Positions 36,924-41,561 of a stretch of DNA of 64,000 nucleotides are shown here, piece after piece. The stretch is from Candidatus Izemoplasma sp. Lineage in GTDB: Bacteria; Bacillota_I; Bacilli_A; Izemoplasmatales; Izemoplasmataceae. The translations under genes and the position numbers were made by a program. Location of the stretch: NCBI GenBank assembly GCA_021736205.1, contig JAIPGF010000002.1:1-64000 (forward strand), given 5' to 3'. How positions within the stretch are numbered: the first letter of the stretch is position 1; the number at the start of each line of letters is the position of its first letter. The notes beneath the pieces were generated by a model that was not told the DNA's origin, ran no database searches, and saw only the letters and a program-made list of their open reading frames with translations.

Positions 36924-36957
36924 AAAAATATCACATTCTATGTGGTATTTTTTTATA
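36924..36957 (+). terminator. Terminator of hup
   Basis: AATATCACAT pairs with ATGTGGTATT (one G-U), then a T-run. Confidence 0.8.
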
Positions 36958-36996
36958 TTTTGTGCTATTTTTTTAATGAAGGCAGGAGGTGGTTTT

Positions 36997-38199
36997 GTGA
37001 AATATAAAAAATATCTGAACCATTCAAATGGACGCAGTGAAGATATCTTCATTGCTGCTTTAAATGACGACACAAAATTCATCGTTAAATATATTGAAAA
37101 AAAGAATGATATTCATATACTTGATGAACGAAATCAAACGTTGTTGCATCTTGCAACAAGAAATAAAGCAAAGATGGCAGTTGAATTGTTGTTAGAATTA
37201 GGAGTGGATCCGAACGCAAAAGATAGACATCTAGATACGCCATTACATATCGCGTCTTATATGGGAGATTGTGCGATTGTTAAGTTGTTACTTGCGTATG
37301 ATGCTGATCCAAACCAAGTGAACAAAAGTAAAGAAGCACCGCTTCATAAAGCATGCTTAAAAGGAAATTTAGATACAGTTAAGGAATTGGTTGAACAGGG
37401 CGCAAATATTTATCTTAAAGATGAATATTTAAGAAGTATCATGCATTACGCGGTTAAATCAAAAAAAATTAAAGTTGTGAGTTATCTAACTAACCAGGGA
37501 GCCATTATTAATTCATTAGATATCAAAGGGGAATCAACGCTGCATTATACGGCGAAGTATTCGCTAGTATCGATAATGAATTACTTACTAGAACAAGGCG
37601 TCAATCCTTATATTAAAGACACCTATAAAATGACACCACTTCATGCAGCTGTTTTACATCCCAATGTTGATATGATTGACACACTCATTAATAGTGGGCT
37701 TTCTTCATACGATAAATCTAAGTTTAATGAATCGCCATATGATTTAGCTCAGAAAAAAGGGAAATATGAAGCGATTGAACGTTTTACAAAACTTAAAAAT
37801 AATAAAGACTATCAAAAAAAACTTAAGGAAAATAAATTAACATTTAGTATTATAAGTAATAAAATCTTTTTAGCGAGTTCACTGTTGAACCGAAAAGATA
37901 TTAATAAACGCGATAGATTTAACAACACACCACTATTTTATGCAATTATGAATGAAGAATTATTTTTAGTTGAAGCATTACTTAAAAAAGGTGCACAAAC
38001 TTCAGAAGTTGATAAAACAAAAAAAGATGCCATTCATTTTGCAGTATTACTCCAAAATGAAGACATCGTTAAGTTATTATTAGATTATCCAATTGATTTT
38101 TCTAAAAAAATAAACAATCTTACTGTATTAGAGTTTGCTAAAAAGTTAGATAATTACCACATTATAAAACAACTAGAACAAATTAAAAACAACCGTTAA
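36997..38199 (+). CDS. Ankyrin-repeat protein
   Basis: This 400-residue soluble protein is made almost wholly of ankyrin repeats, at least eight. They include TLLHLATRNKAKMAVELLLELG (about 45-66), DTPLHIASYMGDCAIVKLLL, EAPLHKACLKGNLDTVKELVEQG, IMHYAVKSKKIKVVSYLTNQG, STLHYTAKYSLVSIMNYLLEQG and TPLHAAVLHPNVDMIDTLINSG, with a less regular second block from about residue 290. No enzyme domain, signal peptide or membrane helix is seen; it presumably binds a protein. AGGAGGTGG (36984-36992) selects GTG 36997. The terminator overlaps its stop. The partner is unknown. Confidence 0.85.
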   Translation: MKYKKYLNHSNGRSEDIFIAALNDDTKFIVKYIEKKNDIHILDERNQTLLHLATRNKAKMAVELLLELGVDPNAKDRHLDTPLHIASYMGDCAIVKLLLAYDADPNQVNKSKEAPLHKACLKGNLDTVKELVEQGANIYLKDEYLRSIMHYAVKSKKIKVVSYLTNQGAIINSLDIKGESTLHYTAKYSLVSIMNYLLEQGVNPYIKDTYKMTPLHAAVLHPNVDMIDTLINSGLSSYDKSKFNESPYDLAQKKGKYEAIERFTKLKNNKDYQKKLKENKLTFSIISNKIFLASSLLNRKDINKRDRFNNTPLFYAIMNEELFLVEALLKKGAQTSEVDKTKKDAIHFAVLLQNEDIVKLLLDYPIDFSKKINNLTVLEFAKKLDNYHIIKQLEQIKNNR

Positions 38200-38903: not shown

Positions 38904-38986
38904 TTGTATTACCTCCAATATTGATTATAGCATAAACAAACTTCAATGTTGATTAAATAATAAAAAAAATAAGAAGGATGATTTTT

Positions 38987-39571
38987 TTGAAAGAAGTATT
39001 AATTGCAACCAAAAATAAACATAAGATAAAAGAACTAAGCACCGTTTTGTTACCACTAGGCTTCAACATAAAAAGTTTATATGATTACCCGCAATTACCA
39101 GATATTATTGAAGATCAAAAAACGTTTAAAGGCAATGCATTGAAAAAAGCTAAAACACTTAGTCAATTGACAAACAGACCAGTAATTGCAGATGATAGTG
39201 GACTTCAAGTGAAAGCATTAAACGATGCGCCAGGGATTTATTCATCAAGATTTGCCAGTAAACATGCAACCGATAAACAAAATAATAATCTACTGCTTAA
39301 AAAGTTAAAAAATATTAGTAATAGAGAAGCACGTTTTATTACTTCTATTTGTTTATATATTCCCACCAAAGAGCCTATTTATTTTACGGGGATTTTAAAT
39401 GGACGTATAGCAACTAACTATAAAGGAGAAAATGGCTTTGGATATGATCCTATTTTTATTGAAGAAGGTTCAAATAAGCATCTTGCAGAACTGACTTTAC
39501 AAGAAAAAACTCAGATTTCACATCGAGCTAAAGCAACTCAGAAATTAATTTCATATTTAAAAACACTTTAA
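38987..39571 (+). CDS. rdgB: XTP/dITP diphosphohydrolase (RdgB/HAM1)
   Basis: RdgB removes non-canonical purine nucleotides (dITP, XTP) from the pool by hydrolysis to the monophosphate. Family motifs: EVLIATKNKHKIKEL (TxNxxKxxE-type), VIADDSGLQVKALNDAPGIYSSRFA, GENGFGYDPIF and SHRAKA. The start is probably TTG 38987, because AGAAGG (38972-38977) directly abuts the ATG at 38978 but is well spaced for the TTG. It lies near the yfcE-type phosphodiesterase as in Bacillus (ysnA-ysnB), here with rubrerythrin between them. Confidence 0.93.
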   Translation: MKEVLIATKNKHKIKELSTVLLPLGFNIKSLYDYPQLPDIIEDQKTFKGNALKKAKTLSQLTNRPVIADDSGLQVKALNDAPGIYSSRFASKHATDKQNNNLLLKKLKNISNREARFITSICLYIPTKEPIYFTGILNGRIATNYKGENGFGYDPIFIEEGSNKHLAELTLQEKTQISHRAKATQKLISYLKTL

Positions 39572-39610: not shown

Positions 39611-40183
39611 ATGTCTATAAAAGGAACTCAAACAGAAAAGAATTTATTAAAAGCATTTGCTGGAGAATCACAAGCAAGAAATCGTTACACTTTATTCGCA
39701 GAAGTCGCTAAAAAAGAAGGGTATGAACAAATTGCTGAGGTATTTTTAGAAACTGCAGAGAATGAACTAGAACATGCTAGAATATTTTTTAATTATTTAG
39801 AAGGTGGGAATGTAGAAATAACAGCTACTTATCCTGCCGGTGTTGAAGGCAAAACAACTGAGAACTTACATGCTGGAGCTGATGGTGAAAATGAAGAATG
39901 GAATGATTTATATCCACACTTTGCCAAAACAGCAGATGAAGAAGGCTTTAAAAAAATTGCAGCTAGTTTTAGAATGATTGCTAAGATAGAAAAGGAACAT
40001 GAAGAACGTTATCGTAAATTTATACAAAATCTAGAAGAAGATGTTGTCTTTGAAACAGACGGACCAACGATTTGGTTCTGCCGTAAATGTGGCTATGTTC
40101 ATGTCGGTAAAAAAGCACCTGGTATGTGTCCAGTTTGTTTACATCCTAAAGCTTACTTTGAACGTAAAAAACAAAATTATTAA
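39611..40183 (+). CDS. rbr: Rubrerythrin
   Basis: Rubrerythrin is a non-heme iron peroxidase that protects anaerobes from hydrogen peroxide. The ferritin-like diiron domain has its Glu/His ligands in LKAFAGESQARNRY, ETAENELEHARIFF (ExxH) and AKIEKEHEERY (ExxH). The C-terminal rubredoxin domain has two CxxC pairs in FCRKCGYV and MCPVCLHP, holding the electron-relay iron. At 190 residues it is a typical forward-order rubrerythrin. It is monocistronic by promoter and terminator. Its presence argues for an anaerobic or microaerobic life. Confidence 0.97.
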   Translation: MSIKGTQTEKNLLKAFAGESQARNRYTLFAEVAKKEGYEQIAEVFLETAENELEHARIFFNYLEGGNVEITATYPAGVEGKTTENLHAGADGENEEWNDLYPHFAKTADEEGFKKIAASFRMIAKIEKEHEERYRKFIQNLEEDVVFETDGPTIWFCRKCGYVHVGKKAPGMCPVCLHPKAYFERKKQNY

Positions 40184-40191
40184 TTGGTTAA

Positions 40192-40228
40192 AAATACTGA
40201 ACAGTTCTAGTTCAGTATTTTTTATTTT
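40192..40228 (+). terminator. Rho-independent terminator of rubrerythrin
   Basis: AAATACTGAAC (40192-40202) pairs with GTTCAGTATTT (40210-40220), followed by T's. Confidence 0.85.
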
Positions 40229-40253: not shown

Positions 40254-40270
40254 ATATATAGGTGATGATC

Positions 40271-40756
40271 ATGAAAATAGTTATATTTAGCGATGCACAC
40301 GGTAATAAAGAGGCTGTTGATACTATTTTAAAAAATAACCAAGATGCGGCTTATGTGATTTCTCTTGGGGATACGGAACTTACTTCAACGTACTTAGATA
40401 CCAATAATATCCTCGCAATAAAAGGCAATTATATTAATGATCCTGGTCTCGGATACAGTAAAGAACTTCATTTGCATCATAAAAATATTTACATAACGCA
40501 TGGTCACAAACATGGGGTCCACTGGTCATTAAATAGTTTGGTATTATTTGGACGTGCCAACAACTATGATTTAATGTGTTTTGGTCATACCCATAAAGCA
40601 CTTTATTTCATGCACGAAACTATGCATGTGGTTAATCCAGGCAGTTGTTCGGAGTCGCGGAATCATCTTCCCCCGAGTTATGTTGTTGTTCATTTAAATA
40701 AGAAAATAGTTATTACATTTAAAGAAGTAGCTACCCATAAGCAACTAAAAATATAA
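40271..40756 (+). CDS. YfcE/MJ0936-type metallophosphoesterase
   Basis: This compact calcineurin-like phosphodiesterase of 161 residues has dinuclear metal motifs in order: SDAHGN (residues 7-12), LGDTE, KGNY, ITHGHKHG and FGHTHKA, with VNPGSCSESR at the end. Members hydrolyse phosphodiesters in vitro; the cellular substrate is unknown. ATG 40271 is chosen over the upstream in-frame ATG codons because AGGTGATGA ends just before it. The PDT-like gene follows after 13 bases, so the two are likely cotranscribed. Confidence 0.88.
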   Translation: MKIVIFSDAHGNKEAVDTILKNNQDAAYVISLGDTELTSTYLDTNNILAIKGNYINDPGLGYSKELHLHHKNIYITHGHKHGVHWSLNSLVLFGRANNYDLMCFGHTHKALYFMHETMHVVNPGSCSESRNHLPPSYVVVHLNKKIVITFKEVATHKQLKI

Positions 40757-40769
40757 AGGATGTGAGTTA

Positions 40770-41561
40770 ATGATTGGTTATAAACAAGATATGATCCACA
40801 ACACCTTTGATGCAGCACAAGAAATTTATGTGAAAGAAGGGATTCAACCTTTTAAAAACTTATCAAGGCTTAAAACAAGTTTATTAAATAACGAGATTGA
40901 TGGATTTGTTATCCCCTTAGGAAATGATACCAAAGGGTATGATATTGATATGTTTAATTTTTTAGTATTGAATGGGTTTCATCTATCACGTGTGATTAAT
41001 TTAACCGTAGAAATACAAGTGATTTCTCAAACATTAACACCTAAAACAATCACCAAACTTTATGGTACAACCCATTTGATCACTGAATCATATCAACATA
41101 TTAAAGAGCACCTACCACATGTTCAACTAGAAGTTATTACAAACGTTAATGACTATATAGATACCGTATCTAATGCAGAAAAAACAGCTCTTTTAACCAC
41201 AAACAGAACAGATCCTAGACATCTTAATGTTATTCTAAACGACGTTAGAGATAATACCTACAACAATCACCAACGTTTTGGCTTTATTACAAACAAACTG
41301 GAAGTATCAAACTATCATACAAAGACTTTGCTTGCTATTCAACTAATGAATAACCATTCAAACAGTATTTATGATGTGTTACATGAATTTAGCTTGCGTA
41401 ACATTCGTGTTACCAATATATTTTATAATGCGAAAAGCAACGTAAAATACTTGTATCTCATTACAGATAAGAATATACAAGATAACAAATTAAAAGACTG
41501 TCTTAAACTCTTAAACAATAAAACACGAAGGACCCAAATACTCGGGTCATATAAAGAGTGA
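40770..41561 (+). CDS. Prephenate-dehydratase-like protein with ACT domain, catalytic Thr missing
   Basis: The 263-residue chain aligns along its whole length with bacterial prephenate dehydratase. It has a PDT fold (PFKNLSRLKTSLLNNEIDGFVIPLGND, like AVxxGExDFAFVPLEN), then VRDNTYNNHQRFGFIT where PDT has RDNxTRF. An ACT-type domain follows (IYDVLHEFSLRNIRVTNIFYN), ending LGSYKE. The essential TRF Thr is Gln168 here, and the ACT ESRP phenylalanine-binding motif is not kept. It is therefore unlikely to make phenylpyruvate. It may sense an aromatic compound or serve another role. The start is supported by AAAGGATGTGAG. Confidence 0.6.
   Translation: MIGYKQDMIHNTFDAAQEIYVKEGIQPFKNLSRLKTSLLNNEIDGFVIPLGNDTKGYDIDMFNFLVLNGFHLSRVINLTVEIQVISQTLTPKTITKLYGTTHLITESYQHIKEHLPHVQLEVITNVNDYIDTVSNAEKTALLTTNRTDPRHLNVILNDVRDNTYNNHQRFGFITNKLEVSNYHTKTLLAIQLMNNHSNSIYDVLHEFSLRNIRVTNIFYNAKSNVKYLYLITDKNIQDNKLKDCLKLLNNKTRRTQILGSYKE

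Follow-up and report, generated by a model that had tools for sequence, protein, structure and literature searches.

At 40770-41561 (+), the window, by which we mean the whole 64,000-nucleotide stretch analyzed here (GenBank assembly GCA_021736205.1, contig JAIPGF010000002.1, positions 1 to 64,000 of the forward strand; genome label G000), contains an intact open reading frame that spans exactly this interval and encodes a 263-amino-acid homologue of prephenate dehydratase (PDT) with an ACT domain but without the catalytic threonine. Open reading frame, profile and synteny analyses identified the gene as an orthologue of the pheA gene of the Izemoplasmataceae. The interpretation that we prefer over decay of the gene and over an altered but active dehydratase, and to which we give about an even chance of being correct, is that the encoded protein is a former PheA that was kept as a non-PDT protein.

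Fold, locus and orthologues of the gene

The PDT plus ACT architecture that an initial annotation, made from the sequence alone, had described as complete was borne out by profile and structure comparisons. The window protein matched the Pfam PDT profile (PF00800), its sole Pfam domain, with 38.1 bits, above the curated cut-off of 25.2. A scan with the NCBIfam PDT equivalog profile NF008865 (cut-off 219), which covered four Thr-less proteins and one canonical enzyme, yielded 63.8 bits over residues 23-262 of the window protein. The Thr-less proteins of G025 (124 bits), G008 (74.3) and G003 (51.1) likewise failed, whereas the canonical protein of G009 passed (241.4). An AlphaFold2 model based on nine sequences (mean pLDDT 80, pTM 0.64) showed the PDT plus ACT fold; PDTs, among them 2qmw_B with Z 19.7 and an rmsd of 3.0 across 242 residues, were its best structural matches. 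ACT domains of other proteins matched model residues 184-261, which placed the ACT domain at codons 184-261 (41319..41552, +). In fold, domain order and length, the protein resembles PheA (PF00800 plus ACT; NF008865), canonical orthologues of which occupy the same locus in genus g7. It differs from PheA in the absence of the TRF threonine, Glu51, Asp63, loop 1 and the Phe motifs of the ACT domain.

As originally annotated, the gene follows that of a phosphodiesterase: a YfcE-type gene (40262..40756, +), identified by open reading frame and profile matches, ends 13 bases upstream of its start. AAGGA, a possible ribosome-binding site by reading of the sequence, lies nine bases 5' of the start codon (40756..40760, +), and the two genes possibly share one transcript. 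Matches to yfcE were obtained in 43 of the 49 family genomes, and the 30 best of these loci were inspected; ten have an adjoining PDT gene, and yfcE adjoined PDT in all ten PDT-bearing loci. A weak candidate for a terminator-like hairpin (two such hairpins found versus 1.2 expected by chance) was located 5' of yfcE (40190..40222, +) and, if real, would make yfcE and the PDT homologue a two-gene unit. Rfam searches of the window and six loci gave no match at gathering score to a T-box or any other RNA regulator around the gene. Further upstream, genes for rubrerythrin (39611..40183, +; profile match, synteny) and RdgB, an XTP/dITP diphosphatase (38978..39571, +; profile matches, synteny), complete a conserved neighborhood. 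At 36940-38199, the window also encodes a 419-amino-acid ankyrin-repeat protein, homologues of which occur near the same locus in several relatives.

Orthologues were found in 11 of the 49 family genomes. The four canonical copies, which carry TRF and E-S-R, all belong to genus g7 (G009, G023, G035, G072), while the seven Thr-less copies are distributed over genera g1 (G000, G003), g6 (G008) and g9 (G011, G025, G031, G061). The order rdgB-rubrerythrin-yfcE-PDT surrounded every orthologue except that of G072, whose contig starts within the gene; in G031, long overlapping frames masked rubrerythrin and yfcE in the open-reading-frame listing, and both were located by homology searches. A PDT tree grouped the 11 family copies (support 100/99) and, within these, the seven Thr-less copies (90/95) on long branches; the pairing of the window with G003 had a support of 38/20. 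A tree of the neighbor genes, gappy and with mostly weak support, placed g1 apart and split g7.

By these sequence relationships, the gene is the family's pheA by descent, and the site behind yfcE is the family's pheA locus, because a normal TRF enzyme occupies it in g7 (G009, G023, G035). For the same reason, position was rejected as a sign of reuse: the initial annotation had argued that a place behind a phosphodiesterase gene, rather than among aromatic synthesis genes, indicated a new role, but canonical enzymes sit at the identical locus. It had also named Thr-bearing homologues in close strains as evidence against its reading. At family level, such homologues exist, in g7. Within the window's own genus, the gene was found in just one other genome, G003, whose copy has His there rather than Thr.

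An assembly or sequencing artefact might be suspected in a draft genome of 1.56 Mb in 58 contigs (completeness 91.7%). Since G011 and G025, each assembled as a single contig, and other genomes also carry a Thr-less copy at this locus, and since the window gene has neither a stop nor a frameshift, this explanation is extremely improbable.

The orthologue was not found in 38 of the 49 family genomes, including 13 of the 20 with at least 90% completeness and at most 5% contamination. In the window's own genus, no match was obtained in G001 or G002, which are 53 and 72% complete, respectively. One family genome beyond the 11 with an orthologue, G014, gave a match, which was a short PDT of another kind.

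Several further observations concern these loci. The G+C content at the loci L034 (G025), L035 (G011) and L038 (G031) was 39, 31 and 54%, respectively, a wide spread for genomes assigned to a single genus, g9. In G035, the yfcE gene 5' of the canonical PDT gene (G035:C92:17611-18093) has one in-frame TGA, which may be an error or early decay. A canonical PDT from another family of the class (L080; G113, a 0.8 Mb draft, 78% complete) shared 43% identity with the G009 protein and, among the matches listed from the class sample, ranked first of those from other families; this may point to a transfer.

Catalytic and phenylalanine-binding residues

Residues were compared with a canonical set of 33 PDT rows, with numbering according to G009. 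Twelve of these rows were labelled in advance (four from genus g7, two from Natroniella and six from the order or class). The other 21 (L080-L100) comprised every non-family locus among the 30 listed, from 90 genomes with a match, and were taken without motif screening. Five short PDTs, all of which retain the Thr, were excluded. All 33 rows share the Thr and Phe in T-R/K-F, the Glu and Asn in P-x-E-N, a Gly at the fourth position past that Asn and an Asp at the seventh position past that Gly (Asp63), as well as Gly198 and Ser-Arg219-220 of the ACT domain.

Alignment of the window protein with canonical PDTs revealed the following differences. At codons 3-14 (40776..40811, +), the window has GYKQDMIHNTFD versus GYLGPENSFTYF in canonical G009; its loop 1 is G-Y-K-Q-D-M-I-H-N-T-F-D. 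At codons 49-63 (40914..40958, +), P-L-G-N-D-T-K-G...N63 replaces the canonical P-x-E-N-x-x-x-G...D63, with Gly51 and Asn63 in place of the Glu and Asp found in 33/33 canonical rows. Codons 165-170 (41262..41279, +) read N-N-H-Q-R-F instead of N-x-T-R-F, and the catalytic Thr is gone. The initial annotation was thus correct about its absence, while the proposed replacement by Gln168 is one of two readings: the window has one extra residue beside TRF, and MAFFT alignments disagree on whether His167 or Gln168 occupies the Thr position. Neither alignment places Ser or Thr there.

In the ACT domain, the window has N-S-I for the G-A-L motif, with Asn198 for Gly198. Codons 219-220 (41424..41429, +) encode Tyr-Asn instead of the Ser-Arg of the Phe-binding motif E-S-R-P; the reported loss of ESRP was confirmed by the sequence I-F-Y-N-A where the enzyme has I-E-S-R-P. 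The names of both motifs follow PMC10845154. Losses of loop 1, Glu51, Asp63 and ACT Gly198 come in addition to those annotated initially. Of the 26 columns in which no more than one of the 12 pre-labelled canonical rows deviates, the window retains 11 and the six other Thr-less copies 14 to 19.

These six copies align at the Thr position: without insertion, five have His (G003, G025, G031, G061) or Asn (G011), and the sixth has Ala (G008). All seven Thr-less proteins also lack Asp63 and ACT Arg220. The window copy therefore shares with its g9, g6 and g1 orthologues both the locus and the losses of Thr168, Asp63 and Arg220. It differs from the g9 copies, which retain Gly6, Glu51, Asn52 and Gly56 and have constrained cleft segments, in keeping only Asn52 of the first three. 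Glu51 is missing in G003 as well.

In a fungal PDT, a Thr-to-Ala exchange in TRF is described as having abolished in vitro activity (PMC11980547). On this evidence, PDT catalysis has likely been lost in the window protein. In the Escherichia coli enzyme, Glu159 is described as apparently important in substrate binding (PMC8192741); by our own motif alignment, it corresponds to Glu51.

Alternatively, the protein may still dehydrate prephenate or arogenate with an altered site, for example with the His of N-x-H-K-F/Y as general acid, and provide the sole route to Phe. The presence of His at the Thr position in four of the seven Thr-less copies (five with the other window alignment) and the retention of Gly6, Glu51, Asn52 and Gly56 in g9 are consistent with such an enzyme. 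The variety of the replacing residue (His, Asn, Ala, perhaps Gln), the absence of Glu51 from both the window copy and G003, and the inactivity of the fungal Thr-to-Ala variant argue against it. Together with the pathway evidence discussed below, they make an altered dehydratase unlikely.

Two known systems offer comparisons. GqqA (PDB 7am0), described as a PDT with an added activity, the hydrolysis of N-acyl-homoserine lactones (PMC8192741), shares the PDT plus ACT fold and was a structural match, but reportedly complements a pheA mutant and has a cleft threonine, Thr174 (PMC8192741), which the window protein lacks. Plant arogenate dehydratases, which are related enzymes, are described with TRF, GALV and ESRP motifs and, in one soybean copy, an SRY triad (PMC10845154). 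The Ser of this triad retains a hydroxyl, whereas the window protein has none at that position. In the literature searched, no paper paired 'prephenate dehydratase' with 'pseudoenzyme', and none of the titles among the matches listed concerned a PDT family without the Thr.

Selection and retention of the Thr-less copies

The reading frame is open in each of the seven Thr-less copies. Neutral simulations that started from the G003 gene were run at three divergences (0.3, 0.6 and 1.2 substitutions per site), and at every one of them 0 of 600 frames remained open; simulations at the divergences of the Thr-less copies yielded about 10-16 stops. The open frames of these copies therefore reflect more than chance.

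Rates of evolution differed between genera. For the Thr-less g9 pair G061/G011 (72% identical), dN/dS was 0.13 at a dS of 1.72, close to the value of 0.10 for the canonical pairs G009/G035 and G009/G023; outside the G061/G011 and g7 pairs, dS was saturated or nearly so. This limit applies to the dN/dS of about 0.34 for the window and G003, where dS was saturated. The three signature segments of the g9 proteins had 25 invariant columns out of 45, versus 38 out of 133 in the remaining domain (p = 0.002), and those of the canonical g7 proteins 34/45 versus 76/133 elsewhere (p = 0.03). In g1 and g6 combined, 6/45 versus 17/130 columns were invariant, which represents no extra conservation. These results, with the dN/dS of one g9 pair, indicated that the g9 protein is under purifying selection near that of the enzyme, with a constrained cleft, and that the state of the gene varies by genus, being constrained in g9 and fast-evolving in g1 and g6.

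For the window and G003, the tree distance was 2.98 for PDT and 0.81 for the concatenated neighbor genes, so that PDT evolved about 3.7 times faster. Identities between these genomes were 28% for PDT, 40% for yfcE, 50% for the ankyrin protein, 56% for rdgB, 71% for gpsA and 76% for rubrerythrin. The yfcE gene was fast too, with a dN/dS of 0.30 for G061/G011.

The rapid evolution in g1 and g6, the lack of extra constraint on their cleft segments and the failure to find the gene in 38 of 49 family genomes (including 13 of 20 of good quality) would be expected if a former pheA were decaying because selection on it had relaxed in a host that depends on Phe, with the frame still open by chance or through recent loss of function. 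Decay is nevertheless unlikely in view of seven open Thr-less copies where neutral simulation yields about 10-16 stops, the purifying selection in g9 and the absence of remnants behind yfcE in other family members. At 20 of the 30 yfcE loci viewed, tblastn detected no trace of PDT in the flanks (about 1.5 kb, less in a few). As other family members delete the gene without remnant, an open copy suggests use.

The preferred interpretation, retention as a non-PDT protein, starts from a gene that descends from the family's pheA and still lies at the pheA place behind yfcE. In this lineage, the protein has lost the TRF Thr, the Glu and Asp of P-x-E-N...D and the ACT motifs for Phe binding. It would most likely have stopped making phenylpyruvate, and Phe feedback control would most likely be gone. 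We infer that it was retained as a folded, probably ACT-dimerized protein of the PDT fold, whose new role would be that of a binding or partner protein. In g9, the continued sequence constraint on the cleft points to binding of a small molecule. Against this interpretation, the window lineage lacks extra cleft constraint and its rapid evolution fits decay too, while retained activity would fit both a pathway that is complete as far as prephenate and the growth of a strain, probably of g9, on medium without added Phe.

The original proposal that a PDT fold was reused gained from the intact gene, from the absence of a second pheA among the matches and from purifying selection in g9, and lost its argument from position. 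A sensor role, also suggested initially, is not directly supported: the ACT domain has lost its Phe motifs too, and the cleft of the window lineage is without extra constraint. A broader proposal, that a clade of at least three Izemoplasmataceae genera turned its long-form PDT either into a dehydratase with His for Thr or into a cytoplasmic, ligand-sensing PDT-fold binding protein coproduced with YfcE, is doubtful.

Phenylalanine pathway and biological context

A search for a second pheA, as proposed in the initial annotation, yielded a single PDT match (PF00800) in the window's genome, which is 91.7% complete. When the window protein was searched against its own genome, the only extra match was weak (E 0.007) and contained three stops. 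In G003, G025, G009 and G013, tyrA shares an operon with the genes for chorismate synthase and chorismate mutase, all three identified by Pfam searches; the further genes of this operon, judged by gene order, are presumably shikimate genes. In G000, the operon genes are split between the ends of contigs C2 and C57, one pathway gene is cut by a contig end, and chorismate synthase was found only as a fragment. Loss of the aromatic pathway in G000 was rejected, given the presence of chorismate mutase and tyrA.

Chorismate mutase was matched in all 22 genomes tried, in 21 of them above the cut-off. Among 101 relatives, tyrA was found above the cut-off in 61, PDT of any kind in 21 and both in 20. 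The 41 of 61 tyrA genomes that gave no PDT match (hand comparison; many of the genomes incomplete) suggest that PDT is often dispensable and that many relatives take up Phe or make it differently. Likely, these relatives have an unknown route to Phe or depend on Phe while synthesizing Tyr. The tyrA gene was present in 7/7 Thr-less genomes versus 32/49 in the family (p = 0.039, by a hand count that ignores kinship). In G010 (L064; 99% complete), chorismate synthase and chorismate mutase were found, without a match to tyrA or PDT.

A second type of PDT, of 185-209 amino acids and without ACT domain, was encountered in G011 (L017), G080 (L019), G014 (L020), G074 (L021) and G042 (L024). These short proteins have R/K-N-[NS]-x-G-G versus E-N-S-x-x-G, and T-E-F, T-T-F or T-S-F versus T-R-F; the two that were scanned both scored under the NCBIfam PDT cut-off. 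G011 carries both a short PDT and the Thr-less long form.

In most Thr-less genomes, the long form is the sole PDT found, and one of the genera probably includes a cultured strain. G025, a single contig of 1,958,905 bases whose sole PDT match is the Thr-less copy, is probably Xianfuyuplasma coldseepsis zrk13. This strain is described as having been enriched with added E. coli DNA; its purification relied on a basal medium prepared in seawater from salts, acetate and cysteine, on which growth was slow (PMC8397711). Growth on this medium hints at Phe prototrophy. Among the matches listed in the Izemoplasma literature, there was no title on phenylalanine synthesis.

These data bear further on an altered dehydratase. 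An active enzyme would account for the failure to find any PDT besides the Thr-less protein, apart from the short one of G011, in genomes that carry tyrA and the genes for chorismate mutase and the shikimate pathway, for the elevated constraint on the three signature segments in g9 and for the purification of zrk13, the probable source of G025, on basal medium without added Phe. Many relatives with tyrA show no PDT, however, and the enrichment of zrk13 with E. coli DNA, its slow growth on basal medium as described and the possibility that seawater carries traces of Phe weaken the argument from growth.

If the Thr-less protein is enzymatically dead, one locus in one bacterial family would hold a natural series from normal pheA to a Thr-less protein, which would suit study of the change from an amino-acid enzyme to a pseudoenzyme. 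If it is still active, the belief that PDT requires the TRF threonine would fall. A cultured relative, X. coldseepsis, is probably at hand.
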